From: Candidatus Hydrogenedentota bacterium
GTDB lineage: Bacteria; Hydrogenedentota; Hydrogenedentia; Hydrogenedentales; JAEUWI01
Reading direction: 5' to 3'
NCBI GenBank assembly: GCA_019637335.1
Contig: JAHBVV010000008.1
Span: 1 to 64,000 of the forward strand
DNA length: 64,000 nt
Positions 10,467-17,919 of this stretch are shown here, in pieces. The notes below the pieces were generated by a model. It searched no databases. It was not told the DNA's origin and was given only the letters and a program-made list of their open reading frames with translations. Position numbers and translations under genes: made by a program. The stretch's first letter is position 1. Every line of letters starts with the position of its first letter.

Positions 10467-11192
10467 CTATCGCCGGTAAATCCAGTCGCGTTGCGCATAT
10501 TTTTCGCGGGCAAGCGCTTCGGCGCGCGCCAGTGCGTCCGGCGGGGGGTGGTCCACGGGCGCGCCGGCCTCAAACGCGGCGGCCAGGGCGGCCTTGAGCG
10601 CGTCGGGCGTCGCCGGGACGGGGGCGATGAAATCGCGGTGCGGCCGCGCGCCCCGGTAGTCCGGCCGGTCCTGCGGTTCGCGAAGGTAGCGGTCGATCGC
10701 GTCAAGATCGGGCCGGTAGAGCAGGGTTCCGTGGTGTAGGATCGCGTTTCGGCGGCGGCGCTGGGCGTTTCCCGAGATTTTCCGGCCCTGAACGGCGATA
10801 TCGGAGATGCCCGCGCGTTCGGCGGCGATACCGAGGGTTTTCAGGGCCGCGCGGACGCGATCGAGGATGTAGCGGTAGGAGCCGTGCAGGGACGCGGCCT
10901 CGGGATGATTCGCGAGGGTGAGAAACAGCGCGAAGTTGAGAGAGCCGGGACCCTGGAGCACGCAGCCGCCGGCGGTGCATCGCCGCATGATGGGCACGCC
11001 GTCGGCCAGGCACCGATCTTCGTGCACCTCGGCGGTCAGGCGCTGGCCGGTTCCGAGCACGACGAACGGCGCGGGGCACTCCCAGAAGCGGATTGTATCC
11101 GGCTGCAGGCCCTGATCGACCGCCTCCAGCAGCGCCTCTTCCAGCGCCAGGTTGGTCGCCGGATCGGGGCTGCTGTAATCAATACACCGCAT
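10467..11192 (-). CDS. Lipoate-protein ligase A family protein
   Basis: The 241-residue protein has the BPL/LplA/LipB fold motifs. NLALEEALLEAVD is at the N-terminus, RRCTAGGCVLQGPGSLNFAL (about 70-89) matches the RRxxGGGxVxxxxGNxNFT pattern, and GRKISGNAQRR contains the expected lysine. LplA-type enzymes attach lipoate or octanoate to E2 and GcvH domains. Its start overlaps the gcvPB stop (TGATG), so it is the last gene of the glycine-cleavage operon and its likely target is GcvH. The C-terminal accessory domain of E. coli LplA is absent. The Cys in GGC leaves open an octanoyltransferase (LipM-like) activity. Confidence 0.85.
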   Translation of the reverse strand: MRCIDYSSPDPATNLALEEALLEAVDQGLQPDTIRFWECPAPFVVLGTGQRLTAEVHEDRCLADGVPIMRRCTAGGCVLQGPGSLNFALFLTLANHPEAASLHGSYRYILDRVRAALKTLGIAAERAGISDIAVQGRKISGNAQRRRRNAILHHGTLLYRPDLDAIDRYLREPQDRPDYRGARPHRDFIAPVPATPDALKAALAAAFEAGAPVDHPPPDALARAEALAREKYAQRDWIYRR

Positions 11193-12631
11193 CAGAGACA
11201 GGCGCAGTTCAGATCCCGCGCGGCCTTCACTTCATCGAGGCGGCCAACCGGCGTGTTGACCGGCGCGGCGTGCAGGGACTCGGGATCGGAATCCACCAGC
11301 GCGGCGATTTCGAGCATTGCGTCGCAGAACGCGTCCAGCGTTTCCTTCGACTCCGTCTCGGTCGGCTCGATCATGAGGCATTCCTTGACGGTGAGCGGGA
11401 AGTAGATCGTGGGCGCGTGGAAGCCCCGGTCGAGGAGGGCCTTCGCGATGTCGATGGCGTGGACGCCCTTGTCCGCCTGGGACGAGGCCGTGAAAACGCA
11501 CTCGTGCATGTAGCGCGCGCTGAAGGCGGATTTGTAGGCGCCCTTCAGCCGGGCGTGGATGTAGTTGGCGTTCAGCACGGCGTTGCGGCTGACTTCCTTG
11601 AGTCCCTCGTTGCCGTAGTGCCGGAGGTAGGCGTAGGCGCGCACGGCGATGAGGAAGTTCCCGAAGAAGGCGGCGACCCGCCCGATGCTCTTTTCCGGCG
11701 TGGCGAGGGTGTAGCGGTCCCCCTCCTTCACGACGCGCGGGCCGGGCAGGTAGGGCAGCAGGCGCTCGCCCACGCCAACCGGGCCACAACCGGGGCCGCC
11801 CATGCCATGCGGGGTGGCGAACGTCTTGTGCAGGTTGTAGTGCATCACATCGAAGCCCAGATCGCCCGGGCGGCACTGCCCCACGATCGCGTTCAGGTTC
11901 GCGCCATCGTAATAGAGGAGCGCGTCCCGGGTATGGGCGAGCTGGGCGATCTTCGCCACGTCCTTTTCGAAGAGTCCGTGGGTGTTCGGGCAGGTGAGCA
12001 TGATGCCGGCGACGTTGTCGGTCAGCATTTTTTCGAACGCGTCCAAATGAATGGTGCCGTCCTTGTCCGACGGGATCTCCACCACCTTGAATCCGGCCAT
12101 GATCGCGCTGGCGGGATTGGTGCCGTGCGCGCTGTCCGGGATGATAATGGTGTCCTTGTGGGCGTTGCCCTTGTCCTGGTGGTAGGCGGCCATCAGCAGG
12201 GCGCCGGTAAGTTCGCCGTGTGCGCCCGCGATCGGCTGGAGGCTGGCGGCCTTCATGCCCGCGACCTCGGCCAGCTGGCGCTCAAGCTCGTGGATGAGCG
12301 CGTACGCGCCCTGGCAGTGGTCTTCATAGACCGGGCTGCTGGAGAAATGCGGGTGCAGCTGCGCCAGGCCCGGCTGGGCCGCGGCGACCTCGGCGATCTT
12401 CGGATTGTACTTCATCGTGCAGGAGCCGAGCGGGTAAAAGGTGTCGTCGATGCCGACATTCCGCTGGGACAGGTGCGTGAAATGGCGGACGATGTCGATC
12501 TCGGCCATTTCGGGCAGTTCGGCATCCTGGTCGCGGCAGAGATCCGCCGGCAGCGCGGCCTGCGGCACATCGAGCGCGTCGAGGGTGAGGGCGCGGCGGC
12601 CGGGGCGGGACTTTTCGTAGATCAGCTGCAT
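11192..12631 (-). CDS. gcvPB: Glycine dehydrogenase (decarboxylating) subunit 2
   Basis: This is the C-terminal, PLP-carrying half of the glycine-cleavage P-protein (479 residues). It carries YPLGSCTMKYNPK, LQPIAGAHGELTG, PDSAHGTNPASA, and the PLP-lysine motif HYNLHKTFATPHGMGGPG. Together with GcvPA it decarboxylates glycine and hands the aminomethyl group to lipoyl-GcvH. The ATG follows GGAG by 7 bp and lies 10 bp inside the end of gcvPA, so the two subunits are probably translationally coupled and made in equal amounts. Confidence 0.96.
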   Translation of the reverse strand: MQLIYEKSRPGRRALTLDALDVPQAALPADLCRDQDAELPEMAEIDIVRHFTHLSQRNVGIDDTFYPLGSCTMKYNPKIAEVAAAQPGLAQLHPHFSSSPVYEDHCQGAYALIHELERQLAEVAGMKAASLQPIAGAHGELTGALLMAAYHQDKGNAHKDTIIIPDSAHGTNPASAIMAGFKVVEIPSDKDGTIHLDAFEKMLTDNVAGIMLTCPNTHGLFEKDVAKIAQLAHTRDALLYYDGANLNAIVGQCRPGDLGFDVMHYNLHKTFATPHGMGGPGCGPVGVGERLLPYLPGPRVVKEGDRYTLATPEKSIGRVAAFFGNFLIAVRAYAYLRHYGNEGLKEVSRNAVLNANYIHARLKGAYKSAFSARYMHECVFTASSQADKGVHAIDIAKALLDRGFHAPTIYFPLTVKECLMIEPTETESKETLDAFCDAMLEIAALVDSDPESLHAAPVNTPVGRLDEVKAARDLNCACL

Positions 12632-13908
12632 GAAACGTTCTCCAGCGCGCGCGCGAAGGCGTCGAGTTCCTCGCGGGAGCGCTTTTCCGTCACGGCGATA
12701 AGGAGGTCATTGGGTTCGCCCGCGCCGACATCCGCAAGCGGCAATCCGGCGACGAAGCCGTGTTCCAGCATGGCGGCGCACACCTGACGCGCGCCGGCGG
12801 GCAGGCGGACGGCGAATTCGTTGAAGGTCGGGTCGTCGTTCAGCACGGTGGCGAAGCCGAGCTGTTTCTTGAGGTATTCCGCTTTCGAGTGGCAGGCGAC
12901 GGCGAGTTCCTTGAAGCCATCCTTGCCCCAGAGCGAGAGGTGGATCAGGGCGCGCAGGGCGCACAGGGCCTGGTTGGAGCAAATGTTGGACATGGCCTTG
13001 GTGCGCCGGATGTGCTGCTCGCGGGCCTGGAGCGTGAGCACGAAGCCGCGCCGCCCTTCACGATCGACCGTTTCGCCGGCGATGCGGCCGGGCATTTTGC
13101 GGACATGATCCTTGCGCGTGGCCATGATGCCCAGATAGGGCCCGCCGAAGCCCAGCGGCATGCCCAGGCACTGGCCCTCGCCGATGGCGATATCGGCGCC
13201 CATTTCGCCGGGGGTCTTGACCAGGCCCAGCGAAACGGGATAGAAGGACACGACCAGCAGGGCCTTCGCTTCGCGGCAGCGCGCGCCCAGGGCGGTGTAG
13301 TCCGCCACCGTGCCGAGGAAACTCGGGTTCTGGACAATGACGCAGGCGGCGTCGGCCGGGTCGTCGCCCTCAACAATGTCGAGCTCAAGGTTGGCTGCGT
13401 GCGTGAGCAGCATTTTCCGGTAGACGGGATTGAGGGAGGGGTGCAGCACGACCCGGTGTCGGCGGGTAATGCGGACAGCCATCGTCGCCGCTTCAAAGAC
13501 GGCCGTGCCGCCGTCGTAGAGCGAGGCGTTGGCGAATTCCATGCCGGTCAGGCGGCACATGGCCGACTGATACTCATAGATGCTCTGGAGCGTACCCTGG
13601 GAGCGTTCCGGCTGGTAGGGCGTGTAGGCGGTGTAGAATTCGCTGCGGCCCGAAAGCGCGTCCACGGCGGCCGGAATATAGTGGTCGTAGTAGCCGCCGC
13701 CGAGGAAAGAGACCTGTCCGGCCTGGTTGCGGGCGGCGAGGGCGGCCACGTGATCGCGCACCGCCATTTCCGACATGCCCGGCGGGATATCCCACGATTT
13801 CATGCGCAACGGGGCCGGGATGCTGCTGAAGAGCTCCTCGATGTCGGCGACACCGATGGTCTCCAGCATGGCCTGCCGGTCGGCCTCGGTGGTGGGGATC
13901 CAACTCAT
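12622..13908 (-). CDS. gcvPA: Glycine dehydrogenase (decarboxylating) subunit 1
   Basis: This is the N-terminal half of the P-protein (428 residues). It begins MSWIPTTEADRQAMLETIG and carries FLGGGYYDHYIPAAVD, YTPYQPERSQGTLQSIYEYQ, NASLYDGGTAVFEA and GEGQCLGMPLGFGGPYLG, all diagnostic. The frame is open about 270 bases further upstream, but that extension has no family match. ATG 13908 gives the normal N-terminus and has AGGAG 12 bases before it. Split P-protein genes are common in many bacteria, whereas E. coli has a single gcvP. Confidence 0.95.
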   Translation of the reverse strand: MSWIPTTEADRQAMLETIGVADIEELFSSIPAPLRMKSWDIPPGMSEMAVRDHVAALAARNQAGQVSFLGGGYYDHYIPAAVDALSGRSEFYTAYTPYQPERSQGTLQSIYEYQSAMCRLTGMEFANASLYDGGTAVFEAATMAVRITRRHRVVLHPSLNPVYRKMLLTHAANLELDIVEGDDPADAACVIVQNPSFLGTVADYTALGARCREAKALLVVSFYPVSLGLVKTPGEMGADIAIGEGQCLGMPLGFGGPYLGIMATRKDHVRKMPGRIAGETVDREGRRGFVLTLQAREQHIRRTKAMSNICSNQALCALRALIHLSLWGKDGFKELAVACHSKAEYLKKQLGFATVLNDDPTFNEFAVRLPAGARQVCAAMLEHGFVAGLPLADVGAGEPNDLLIAVTEKRSREELDAFARALENVSCS

Positions 13909-14087
13909 GGATGCGTGTACTCCTGAAGGGGCATGCCCGCCCCGGGACGGGCGGGCCGGTATGGTTGACAAGGATTGCGCCGCGGATCGGGCGCGGCCCG
14001 GCGAAAATGGGCGCGCCGCGTCCGCTGATAGAGACCCATGCGGCGGGCGCGGCGATACCCGGGGGCGGGCGGCGCGCGGGAAACTGG
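13909..14087 (-). other. Intercistronic gap with GC hairpins (gcvH-gcvPA)
   Basis: No gene is visible in this 179-bp gap. It holds a strong stem GCCCGCCC/GGGCGGGC at about 13935-13956, plus further GC-rich inverted stretches. No U-run follows, so the hairpins look more like mRNA-stability or partial attenuation structures than a full terminator. Confidence 0.45.
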
Positions 14088-14471
14088 CTAGCCGAGGCTT
14101 TCGACGAAGGCGCGGTAGGCCGAGATGTCCATCAGCGCGTCGAACTCGGTGGCGTCCACTTCTTCGAGCTTGAAGAACCATCCGCCGCCATAGGGGGCTT
14201 TGTTGACCAGTTCGGGGCGCGACTCGAGGGCCTCGTTGATCTCGACGACGGTCCCCGACACGGGCGCGTAGATATCGCTGGCGGCCTTCACGGATTCCAC
14301 GGCTGCGACTTCCTCGCCGGCCTCGACCTCACGGCCGACCTCCGGCAATTCGATGTAGGTGATATCGCCGAGTTGCGCCTGGGCATAATCGGTGATGCCG
14401 ACGAAATACTGGCCGCCCAGCTCGCCGATCCATTCGTGTTCTTCGGTGTACCTGAGATCATCGGGGTTCAT
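14088..14471 (-). CDS. gcvH: Glycine cleavage system H protein
   Basis: GcvH is the lipoyl-carrying shuttle of the glycine cleavage system. The 127-residue protein begins MNPDDLRYTEEHEWI and carries GDITYIELPEVG. The lipoylation site is Lys62 in AAVESVKAASD, followed by APVSGTVVEINEAL. The start at 14471 is chosen because it gives the family N-terminus and follows AAGGAAA; the frame is open upstream without homology. The gene lies 133 bp after gcvT. Confidence 0.96.
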   Translation of the reverse strand: MNPDDLRYTEEHEWIGELGGQYFVGITDYAQAQLGDITYIELPEVGREVEAGEEVAAVESVKAASDIYAPVSGTVVEINEALESRPELVNKAPYGGGWFFKLEEVDATEFDALMDISAYRAFVESLG

Positions 14472-14604: not shown

Positions 14605-15675
14605 CTAAAACTTCTTGCGGCACGTGCCCCCGGCATAGACCGGGATGGCCGCCGTTTCGACGGGGAGATCGCGCGGGCCGGCGGTCAACGCGACGCCCGG
14701 GTGGGCCAGCGCCCGCGGCAGATCCGCCAGGCCGACCCCGCAGCCCACGCTGGGGCCGAAGGTGCCGCTGGTGACCGCGCCCACAACCTGGCCATCGTGC
14801 TTCAGTTCGAAGCCATGGCGCGGCGCCCGGCGGTCGGCGGACTTGATGGCGACCAGCACCGTGTGATCCCCCGCGTCCCGCTGGGCTACCAGGGCCCGCT
14901 TCCCCACAAATTCCTTGTCCCACGCGATGAGTCGGTCCATGCCCGACGCCAGCGGGGTCTTATCGGGGCTCAGATCCTCGCCATTCAGCGGGTAGCCCAC
15001 CTCGGTGCGCAGCGTGTCGCGCGCGCCCAGGCCGCAGGGGGCCACGTCGGGATGCGCCGCGAGACGCTCCCACAGGGGCACGGCGAGATCGTTGGGGACG
15101 AAGATTTCGTAGCCCACTTCGCCGGTATAGCCCGCGCGGGTGACCACGATGTCGCGGCCTTCCCAGTTCAGGCGCAGGCCGTTCCAGTATTTCAGATCGC
15201 GCAGCGCCTCGAAACCCAGCGAGAGCATTACATCGCGCGCGAGCGGCCCCTGCACGTCGAGCTTCGCGGTGGCTTCGCTCACGTTCTCCACGCCGGGAAT
15301 CGCCGAGAGCAGGCTGTGGATCTGATCGAGGGGGCCGGCGTTGGTGACCAGGTAGAGCTCGTCTTCCGCGAGCCGCAGGCCGACGCAATCGTCGATGATG
15401 CCGCCCTGCTCGTTCAGGATCGCGCTGTAGCGGCAGAGGCCCACCCGGAGATTCACCATGTCCGAGAATACGAGCCGGTCAAACGCCGCGATCGCCTCCG
15501 CCCCCCGCAGCACGAATTCCCCCATGTGCGAGCAATCAAACAGACCGGCCTTCGACCGGACGTGGAGGTGCTCGTCGATAATCCCCGCGAACTGCACCGG
15601 AAGCGCCCAGCCGTGAAAGTCCACGACCTTGGCGCCGTGCTGCGCGTAGATGCCGTGCAATGGCGTTTGCCGCAT
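14605..15675 (-). CDS. gcvT: Glycine cleavage system aminomethyltransferase (T protein)
   Basis: GcvT releases ammonia from the aminomethyl-lipoyl H protein and forms 5,10-methylene-THF. From ATG 15675 the protein (356 residues) reads MRQTPLHGIYAQHGAKVVDF. It carries LFDCSHMGEF, DDCVGLRLAEDELYLVTNA, TRAGYTGEVGYEIFV and ARDTLRTEVGYPLNGEDL, the folate-binding signatures. The Shine-Dalgarno GGAGG (15684-15688) is 8 bases upstream; an upstream TTG at 15690 overlaps it and is rejected. It is the first gene of the operon and directly follows the ZTP riboswitch. Confidence 0.96.
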   Translation of the reverse strand: MRQTPLHGIYAQHGAKVVDFHGWALPVQFAGIIDEHLHVRSKAGLFDCSHMGEFVLRGAEAIAAFDRLVFSDMVNLRVGLCRYSAILNEQGGIIDDCVGLRLAEDELYLVTNAGPLDQIHSLLSAIPGVENVSEATAKLDVQGPLARDVMLSLGFEALRDLKYWNGLRLNWEGRDIVVTRAGYTGEVGYEIFVPNDLAVPLWERLAAHPDVAPCGLGARDTLRTEVGYPLNGEDLSPDKTPLASGMDRLIAWDKEFVGKRALVAQRDAGDHTVLVAIKSADRRAPRHGFELKHDGQVVGAVTSGTFGPSVGCGVGLADLPRALAHPGVALTAGPRDLPVETAAIPVYAGGTCRKKF

Positions 15676-15688
15676 GGTGGCAGCCTCC

Positions 15689-15727
15689 AAAAAATCACCC
15701 GCCGGTCCGACCGCCGGAACGTTCCGG
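15689..15727 (-). terminator. Putative expression platform: GC hairpin(s) plus U6 before gcvT RBS
   Basis: On the minus strand the leader has the perfect dyad CCGGAACGTTCCGG (15714-15727) and a small CGGT/ACCG stem (15703-15713). After a short spacer comes TTTTTT (complement of A15689-15694), immediately followed by the GGAGG of gcvT. It could act as an intrinsic terminator or mask the ribosome site under control of the aptamer upstream. The stems are not ideal, so the mechanism is uncertain. Confidence 0.45.
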
Positions 15728-15765
15728 GCCGCATGGCTAAGTGGTTGCTGAAAGATAACTTAAAG

Positions 15766-15848
15766 GCGCCCAGGCGAACGGCAATTCGATACGTCCCGCC
15801 GCTTCACCGTGGTCAGGCCCACGCAATAGCTCGCCAGTCACGGCGGGA
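15766..15848 (-). promoter_or_regulatory. ZTP (pfl) riboswitch aptamer upstream of gcvT
   Basis: Read on the minus strand, the conserved ZTP-riboswitch blocks appear in order. The P1 5' strand CCCGCCG (15841-15847) runs into GTGACTGGCG. Then come GTGGGCCTGACCAC (a stem) and GGTGAAGCGGCGGG, where CGGCGGG (15795-15801) closes P1. After a spacer comes the hallmark CGCCTGGGC (15768-15776). ZTP/ZMP riboswitches sense an intermediate that builds up when 10-formyl-THF is short and switch on one-carbon genes. Placement about 90 bp before the gcvT start fits, because the glycine cleavage system supplies one-carbon units. The GGTGAAGCG block differs slightly from the usual GGGGAGCG. Confidence 0.88.
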
Positions 15849-16232
15849 TTTGCCGCATACTGTGCCAGAAAGCGCCCGGGGAATCAAGATCTCGGGGGGG
15901 CGTTGCGCGTTGCGCGGCGTCGGCGGGCGCGTGGCGGTTGCCGGAGTGGCAGATTTTCATCGGCGCGGCCGTTCAAAATGCGTTGCGTCACCCGTTAAGG
16001 ATGAAAACGGACGGCGGCTTCGCCGCCTGGCAGGCGGCGAAGCCTGCGCTCCCAGCCTTTTGCGCTTCCCCATTAAGACGTGCTGTGCCGTGGTTTGCTT
16101 GAGGCACATGTGGAGAAGATGGGGCGTGCAATCATCGGAGCAGTATGACATTGATCGGTCACGGCCAACCCCGTCCGCGGCTGAGGAAATGCCTGCGTTC
16201 CCGTTTCGATCTTGAGGGTATTATAAATCAAA
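15849..16232. other. Gene-free region between gcv leader and higBA
   Basis: No coding frame with family features was seen in this stretch. It contains the perfect hairpin GGCGGCTTCGCCGCC (16013-16027), followed by GGCGAAGCCTGCGCTCCC. Similar text (GACGCCTGCGCTCCCAGCCTT) recurs near 56138, so this is another interspersed palindromic repeat. The gcv promoter should lie in the right part but no clear -10/-35 was found. Confidence 0.45.
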
Positions 16233-16295: not shown

Positions 16296-16799
16296 ATGGA
16301 AGTTGAATTCGACGATAACGACCTGGAACGCCTGCTCTTCGACCCCGGATTTCGGTCGCGCCTCCCGGCGGAGGTGGCTGTCGATTTAACGTGTGCGGTG
16401 AGCGCATTTCCTACAATTTTGTGCTAACGCCCTATGGCGTCATTCCCGCGAAAGCGGGAATCCAGTGGAATTCGGAGGTTTGTGCGTTCGCGTCGCTGGA
16501 TCCCCGCGTTCGCGGGGATGACGAATCTGCTCATTCCTTCTATAGTGTAGGGTGAGTTAAGTAAACCGACAGCCCCGGATGTGGTGAAGATGTACCGGAA
16601 ACGAATGCAGTTCATCCTGAACGCGCCGGACGAACGCTCCTTTCGGACGATGAAGAGCTTTCATTTCGAGGAATTGCGCGGCGACCGCCAGGGCCAACAT
16701 TCCATCCGGCTGAACAGACAATATCGCCTTGTGTTCCGGTTCGAGGGCGTTTCGCCCGAGAAGCGGCTCGTTGTGCTCGCAGTTGAGGACTACCACTGA
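16296..16799 (+). pseudogene. higB: higB (RelE/ParE-family toxin) split by a 201-bp element
   Basis: The 5' part (16296-16374) encodes the start of a RelE/HigB-type toxin: MEVEFDDNDLERLLFDPGF, then RSRLPAEV. Translation then enters the inserted element and stops at TAA 16425. The 3' part (about 16582-16799) continues the same protein: VKMYRKRMQFILNA, then RTMKSFHFEELRGDRQGQHS, then LVFRFEGVSPEK. Removing the element and one target duplication restores ...GAG GTG GTG AAG ATG... (Glu-Val-Val-Lys-Met) with no frameshift. The toxin would be an mRNA endonuclease. The 3' fragment could still be translated from GTG 16581 or ATG 16590 but lacks the N-terminal helix. The neighbouring antitoxin gene is intact. 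Confidence 0.9.
16375..16575. mobile_element. MITE-like element, copy 1, inserted in higB
   Basis: The 201-bp non-coding element has terminal inverted repeats TGGCTGTCGATTTA and TAAACCGACAGCCC. It is flanked by near-identical 6-bp direct repeats CGGAGG (16369-16374) and CGGATG (16576-16581). The interior has two inverted palindromes (CATTCCCGCGAAAGCGGGAA and GGATCCCCGCGTTCGCGGGG). A second copy of exactly the same length lies at 35331-35531. It encodes no transposase, so it would move in trans. Confidence 0.88.
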
Positions 16800-16800
16800 T

Positions 16801-17919
16801 ATGGCAATCTCCACGAACACCCTCGTCGAAGTCTTCCCGCCCGGCGAGTATATCCAGGACGAACTGGAAGCGCGCGGCTGGCTCCAGACCGATCTCGTGG
16901 ATATTCTGGGCGTGGACAAGAAGACCGTCAGCGATATCATCGCGGGAAAGCGGAGCATCACGCCCGACATGGCCGTGCTTATCGGCGAGGCCTTCGGCAC
17001 CGGTCCCGAAGTCTGGCTGAATCTGGACAACGCGTACCGCCTGCATCACACCCGATGCGGCGCGGACCGCGTCCGGGAGGTATCGCGCAAATCCGAACTG
17101 TACGCGAAGTATCCCATCCGCCAGATGGCCAACCGCGGCTGGCTCAGCCAGACCAAGGACATGGCGCTGTTGGAACAGGAACTGGCGGCGTTCTTCACGC
17201 CGGAGGACCTGGGTTTCGCCGCGCGGCGCTCGGGCGATGAGGCGAAGGAGCCCCTGCAACTGGCCTGGCTCTACCGCGCTCACCACCTCGCCAGGACCCT
17301 GCCCGCCGAGCCCTTTTCCGAGACCGCCCTCGCCCGGGCCTTTCCCGAGCTGAAGACGCTCCTCCGCGACCCGGCCGACCTCGTCAGGCTCCCGGAGATC
17401 CTCGCCCGCGCGGGCGTCCGCATTCTGATTGTCGAAGCGCTTCCCACCTCCCAGATCGACGGCGTCTGTTTCTGGCTCGATCAGAAAATGCCCGTAGTCG
17501 CGCTATCCACCCGGCTCGATCGCATCGACAACTTCTGGTTTACCCTGATGCACGAGTTGATGCACGTCAAATACGGCCACGGCCGCGAACGCGCCATGCT
17601 CGACGTCGATATCCTGGGGCGCAAGGACGATATCCCCAAGGAAGAGCGCCTCGCCAACGAAGGCGCGGCGGAATTTTGTGTGCCCCAGGCGGAACTCGAA
17701 GCCTTCATCGCCCACACCCGCCCCGGGTTCTCCATGGCGAAGATCACTGCCTTCGCGGAGGACATTCAGGCGCACCCGGGGTTGGTGGTGGGCCAACTGC
17801 AGCACCGGGGCGTGATTGAATACCGGCAGCACCGGGGAGCGCTGAAGAAAGTGCGGTCGGCGCTGCTGGCGGACGTGGCGTTTGATGGGTGGGGGGAGGT
17901 TGCGACAACAACCGCTTAA
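16801..17919 (+). CDS. higA: HigA-type antitoxin fused to an ImmA/IrrE metallopeptidase domain
   Basis: The 372-residue protein has an N-terminal HTH of the HigA family: LVEVFPPGEYIQDELEARGW, then QTDLVDILGVDKKTVSDIIAGKRSI (split here for reading), then GTGPEVWLNLDNAYRLH. Its C-terminal half is an ImmA/IrrE (DUF955) peptidase with zinc motif MHELMHVKYGH (HELMH) and a downstream NEGAAEFC carrying the third ligand. It should neutralise HigB and repress the operon; the peptidase part may control antitoxin or repressor turnover. The ATG follows the higB stop by 1 bp. Its toxin partner is broken, so it may now be a free-standing regulator. Confidence 0.9.
   Translation: MAISTNTLVEVFPPGEYIQDELEARGWLQTDLVDILGVDKKTVSDIIAGKRSITPDMAVLIGEAFGTGPEVWLNLDNAYRLHHTRCGADRVREVSRKSELYAKYPIRQMANRGWLSQTKDMALLEQELAAFFTPEDLGFAARRSGDEAKEPLQLAWLYRAHHLARTLPAEPFSETALARAFPELKTLLRDPADLVRLPEILARAGVRILIVEALPTSQIDGVCFWLDQKMPVVALSTRLDRIDNFWFTLMHELMHVKYGHGRERAMLDVDILGRKDDIPKEERLANEGAAEFCVPQAELEAFIAHTRPGFSMAKITAFAEDIQAHPGLVVGQLQHRGVIEYRQHRGALKKVRSALLADVAFDGWGEVATTTA

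Follow-up and report, generated by a model that had tools for sequence, protein, structure and literature searches.

The glycine-cleavage operon is controlled in many bacteria by the glycine riboswitch (gcvT motif, RF00504; PMC12452182). In the DNA analysed here, a stretch of 64,000 nucleotides (the window) at the start of one contig of a 7.16 Mb assembly from the uncultured phylum Candidatus Hydrogenedentota (genome 96% complete), control of the gcvT operon appears to be kept while the RNA and its signal are different. An initial annotation had read a ZTP riboswitch in this leader and had suggested that glycine breakdown would then be a one-carbon rescue pathway. The question raised by this locus is whether the RNA before gcvT belongs to the ZMP/ZTP class and, if so, how and to what end it would act on the operon.

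The aptamer and its operon

As seen by Rfam cmscan, the only match over cut-off in the whole window is RF01750, the ZMP-ZTP riboswitch, at 15851-15761 on the minus strand (61.1 bits, E 1.8e-7; gathering cut-off 39 bits). The match is full length (model positions 1-86 of 86). The covariance-model check suggested in the initial annotation thus gave a significant result, and the four aptamer blocks that it had listed in order on the minus strand are all present; its interval, 15689-15848, holds the aptamer but for 3 bases, the aptamer starting at 15851. Helices P1, P2 and P3 can be recognised together with the pseudoknot GGCG/CGCC. Among 40 aligned gcvT aptamers, changes on both sides occurred at 11 of the 25 pairs, mostly in P1, and the observed covariation score was reached by none of 500 shuffles; P2 and the pseudoknot are invariant and hence uninformative for covariation. 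No variation was seen among the 40 in the pseudoknot strands or in the core CGCCUGGG, and CGCCUGGG is also common to the purH aptamers of the phylum. A full-length score, helices with compensatory change, the pseudoknot with its core, and a place in the leader of a purine or one-carbon gene mark members of RF01750, and all are found here. Judged by its sequence, the gcvT-leader aptamer is an ordinary member of this known riboswitch class (pfl motif; Weinberg 2010, PMC2864571).

The aptamer ends 85 bases before the gcvT start codon at 15675. The downstream gene (14605-15675, minus strand) is gcvT, aminomethyltransferase, as had been annotated; two NCBIfam models score over cut-off (NF001567, 331.9 bits; TIGR00528, 290.2 bits). 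It is followed, all on the minus strand, by gcvH (14088-14471; TIGR00527 and NF002270 over cut-off), gcvPA (12622-13911; NF001696, 568.8 bits), gcvPB (11192-12631; NF003346, 695.5 bits) and, at the operon end with one base of overlap with gcvPB, an lplA-like gene (10467-11192). The latter encodes a lipoate/octanoate ligase catalytic domain (Pfam PF21948, 155.4 bits; below the NCBIfam LplA cut-off) and probably couples lipoylation of GcvH to the glycine-cleavage system. The identities of the aptamer and of the operon are established.

Immediately upstream of the aptamer, a promoter-like element, TTGATT...TGGCACAGTAT (15857-15887, minus strand), was revealed by the leader alignment. Its match to the sigma-70 consensus is weak and it was unscored in the consensus scan; it is probably the promoter, with transcription starting near the aptamer 5' end. 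In the form TTGA(C/T)...GGCAnAGTAT, the element recurs across leaders of the genus and is slightly changed in one leader of the family. Between the gcvT leader and a divergent gene (16729-17919, plus strand), in which a HigA-like HTH is joined to an M78-type metallopeptidase domain, lies a GC-rich palindromic block (16010-16060, minus strand) in which GGCGGCGAAGCCGCC is flanked by inverted copies and accompanied by a short T-run. It may be a terminator or a mobile palindrome.

Distribution within the phylum

ZTP aptamers were found in 59 of 68 Hydrogenedentota genomes, all metagenome-assembled, and number 76 in total. The gene that follows is gcvT for 54 of them and purH for 20, the other 2 being at contig ends; no other gene was seen. 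The gene association is phylum-wide, and it joins the covariance model and the gene identity in bearing out the annotated ZTP riboswitch on a glycine-cleavage operon. Only one other ZTP aptamer exists in the window's genome, before a purH (G000:C18) whose 372-residue protein matches the AICAR transformylase family. Across the phylum, purH likewise encodes a 372-residue AICAR-transformylase protein; purH loci noted were L065 (G000:C18), L016, L022, L051, L057 and L060.

Among the nine aptamer-free genomes, 6 have no recognisable close gcvT, 1 has a gcvT cut at a contig end, and an intact gcvT without the aptamer remains only in G019 and G046. Together with G007 and G011, in which purH alone has one, the genomes with a gcvT lacking an upstream ZTP aptamer number 4. 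No glycine riboswitch (RF00504) over cut-off was found in 60 Hydrogenedentota genomes or in the window. A candidate in G012 (30.8 bits, below cut-off, before a trpA-like gene) looks like a chance match.

Expression platform and alternative readings

In folds of the leader RNA, a predicted anti-Shine-Dalgarno strand, GGCGCCUUUAAG (15759-15770, minus strand), pairs with UUUGGAGGCUGCC (15679-15691, minus strand), in which the end of a U-run is joined to the gcvT Shine-Dalgarno GGAGG (15684-15688, minus strand). The first four bases of GGCGCCUUUAAG belong to the 3' strand of P3. In the unliganded ensemble GGAGG is predicted to be sequestered at 94-96%, and the sequestering helix declines from -14.2 kcal/mol unliganded to -5.9 when P3 and the aptamer are held. 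Pairing of the Shine-Dalgarno with the 16S anti-Shine-Dalgarno sequence, at -9.3 kcal/mol, is stronger than this remaining helix; in the fold modelled with ligand, most of the Shine-Dalgarno stays paired, now with other bases. Because these folds join the aptamer 3' strand to the U-run and Shine-Dalgarno, a translational ON switch is predicted with moderate confidence, and the gcvT leader looks like one that would act by Shine-Dalgarno sequestration. The ON direction is that of most described ZTP riboswitches (PMC2864571, PMC7484762).

Leaders were also compared across the phylum. GGAGGC occurs in 20 of 49 gcvT leaders versus 1 of 88 gcvH/gcvPA/gcvPB starts of the same loci (Fisher 9e-10), and in none of 14 purH leaders. 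The AGGC within it is complementary to GCCU of the aptamer core. Mean pairing between Shine-Dalgarno and aptamer strand was 0.24 in gcvT leaders versus 0.09 when control starts were swapped in (p 1e-4). How far the accessibility of the Shine-Dalgarno changed was no different in gcvT leaders than in controls (p 0.27), and when the gcvT leaders were compared with their own mononucleotide shuffles, Shine-Dalgarno pairing was not significant (p 0.053). The pairing energy of the window's own leader is unexceptional, being equalled by 10 of 39 other start regions of this GC-rich window and matched by 55 of 2000 shuffles. Whole-leader folding energy is usual compared to shuffles; therefore, stability alone is uninformative.

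It is fairly probable, in our judgment, that the ZTP riboswitch turns on gcvT translation of the glycine-cleavage operon as a one-carbon rescue. We infer ligand binding, the ON direction, the translational mode and the physiology as follows. Without ZMP/ZTP, the aptamer 3' strand (the P3 end and CCUUUAAG) would pair with the U-run and Shine-Dalgarno, and ribosomes would be blocked. A shortage of 10-formyl-THF would cause ZMP/ZTP to build up and to lock the pseudoknot together with P3; with the blocking helix thereby reduced, ribosomes could load on gcvT. Glycine cleavage would supply 5,10-methylene-THF, FolD would convert it to 10-formyl-THF, and purine synthesis would resume, with purH under its own copy of the switch. 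A wider proposal is more tentative and, in our estimate, falls a little short of an even chance: that throughout the phylum the glycine-cleavage operon is the main RNA-controlled target of the ZTP alarmone, replacing the fhs, glyA and folD targets of other bacteria, and that the Shine-Dalgarno (AGGC/AGGCG), by mimicking the pseudoknot strand GGCG, acts as its competitor for CGCCU.

The nearest alternative keeps the aptamer and the ON direction and moves control to transcription, with a ligand-free terminator at the U6 run as in classic pfl ZTP riboswitches. Terminators are used by characterised ZTP riboswitches (PMC7484762), and the initial annotation, which described GC-rich hairpins and a U6 run fused to the Shine-Dalgarno, implied one here. 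The U6 run (15694-15689, minus strand) does precede the gcvT start codon and abuts GGAGG (15688-15684), but it lies partly within the sequestering helix, and no intrinsic terminator hairpin was scored before it in the consensus scan of the gcvT leader. The purH leaders differ: 5 of 14 contain GCCCGGGCG, the partner of aptamer strand CGCCUGGGC, and in every one of the five a T-run follows on the 3' side. The terminator partner GCCC(A/G)GGC(G) is present in 5 of 14 purH leaders but in none of 49 gcvT leaders, many of which are just 31-60 bases and have no T-runs. Termination at U6 was thus rejected as the main mode and is unlikely for gcvT. The five purH leaders with GCCCGGGCG and T-run have the classic ZTP terminator layout. 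It seems that the same aptamer controls translation in the case of gcvT and termination in the case of certain purH genes. A natural contrast is thereby offered, with the aptamer before gcvT and purH in one genome and apparently different platforms in several relatives.

Reversal of the switch has a lower probability still. Purine synthesis consumes glycine as a substrate, which would give sense to an OFF switch in which ZTP binding represses glycine cleavage and spares glycine for de novo synthesis. OFF-type tandem ZTP riboswitches have also been predicted before moeA (PMC9481103). This reading is improbable: sequestration is what the folding predicts without ligand, and in these genomes the aptamer is shared by purH, which relieves the same stress. 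A shift of specificity to a metabolite other than ZTP, for example another folate or a glycine-related compound, is suggested by a target gene not reported for the class in the literature searched; it is very improbable given a pseudoknot strand GGCG and a core CGCCUGGG that do not vary among the 40 gcvT aptamers, with the core shared by purH aptamers. The probability of a chance match or a functionless degenerate relic is negligible, nothing in its favour having come to light. Against it stand the E-value of 1.8e-7, the covariation and a position kept in 54 leaders, and this conservation refutes it. The preferred reading remains a ZTP-responsive translational ON switch.

One-carbon supply and targets in other bacteria

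Formate-THF ligase (fhs) was not found by family search in the window's genome, nor in 47 of 67 other Hydrogenedentota genomes, the control genomes being positive; folD and serine hydroxymethyltransferase (SHMT) are present in the window's genome. In a cell that lacks fhs, 5,10-methylene-THF, the product of glycine cleavage, should be the source of 10-formyl-THF. The missing fhs and the presence of FolD therefore fit glycine cleavage as a one-carbon source, and the cell probably breaks glycine down for its one-carbon units whenever purine synthesis is held up. The rescue logic of the initial annotation gains support from this gene content and from the placing of the genome's only other ZTP riboswitch before purH. 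Of the 4 genomes with ZTP-less gcvT, 3 have fhs (G007, G019, G046). A strict link between fhs absence and the gcvT switch was considered and is suggestive only, since the switch is likewise present in many genomes that have fhs.

If true, the proposal places glycine breakdown under a folate-stress alarm across a phylum seen solely as metagenome-assembled genomes. Moreover, it would illustrate a way for bacteria that lack formate-THF ligase to restore purine synthesis. The key paper on the ZMP/ZTP riboswitch (pfl motif) is reportedly that of Kim in Mol Cell, 2015. In the literature searched, that 2015 class paper and the supplementary gene lists aside, no report of a ZTP riboswitch on gcv or glycine cleavage was found. 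Within that scope, both the choice of gcvT as target and its maintenance throughout a phylum appear to be new. Compared to the class as described, the full aptamer (P1-P3 and pseudoknot), the leader position, the purH copy in the same genome and the tie to 10-formyl-THF supply are alike; the gcvTHPAPB operon as target and the predicted gcvT platform, Shine-Dalgarno sequestration rather than a terminator, are different. One-carbon units can be obtained from glycine by cleavage (2022 review, PMC9481103). The same source describes a gene for making serine from 3-phosphoglycerate that carries a tandem ZTP/glycine riboswitch, in which the ZTP aptamer activates and the glycine aptamer represses. ZTP and glycine status are coupled in one-carbon supply in both systems, but in Hydrogenedentota the ZTP aptamer is alone and precedes the genes for glycine breakdown itself.

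Outside the phylum, no ZTP aptamer preceded gcvT at any of 72 loci from Omnitrophota, Desulfobacterota relatives, Verrucomicrobiota relatives, Planctomycetota, Nitrospirota and others; a tandem glycine riboswitch was present at 1 of the 72. In the Planctomycetota sample, the phylum of a Phycisphaerae genome, ZTP aptamers were found in 13 of 199 genomes, before purH in 5 cases and glyA in 8. The glyA riboswitches of Planctomycetota have the same aptamer, serve the same 5,10-methylene-THF pool and have purH as fellow target in the phylum sample; however, glyA converts serine to glycine, whereas gcv breaks glycine down to CO2 and ammonia. In the Actinomycetota sample, the aptamer was found in 16 of 149 genomes, 2 of the 16 being below cut-off and one of these two preceding an unrelated gene. 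The targets, as read from the sequences, are glyA, folD, serC, purH and formate-dehydrogenase-like genes. Neither the Planctomycetota and Actinomycetota samples nor the 72 gcvT loci include gcvT as a ZTP target. Additionally, at the Actinomycetota loci L194 and L198, ZTP aptamers precede long proteins resembling formate-dehydrogenase or NADH-type 2Fe-2S subunits.
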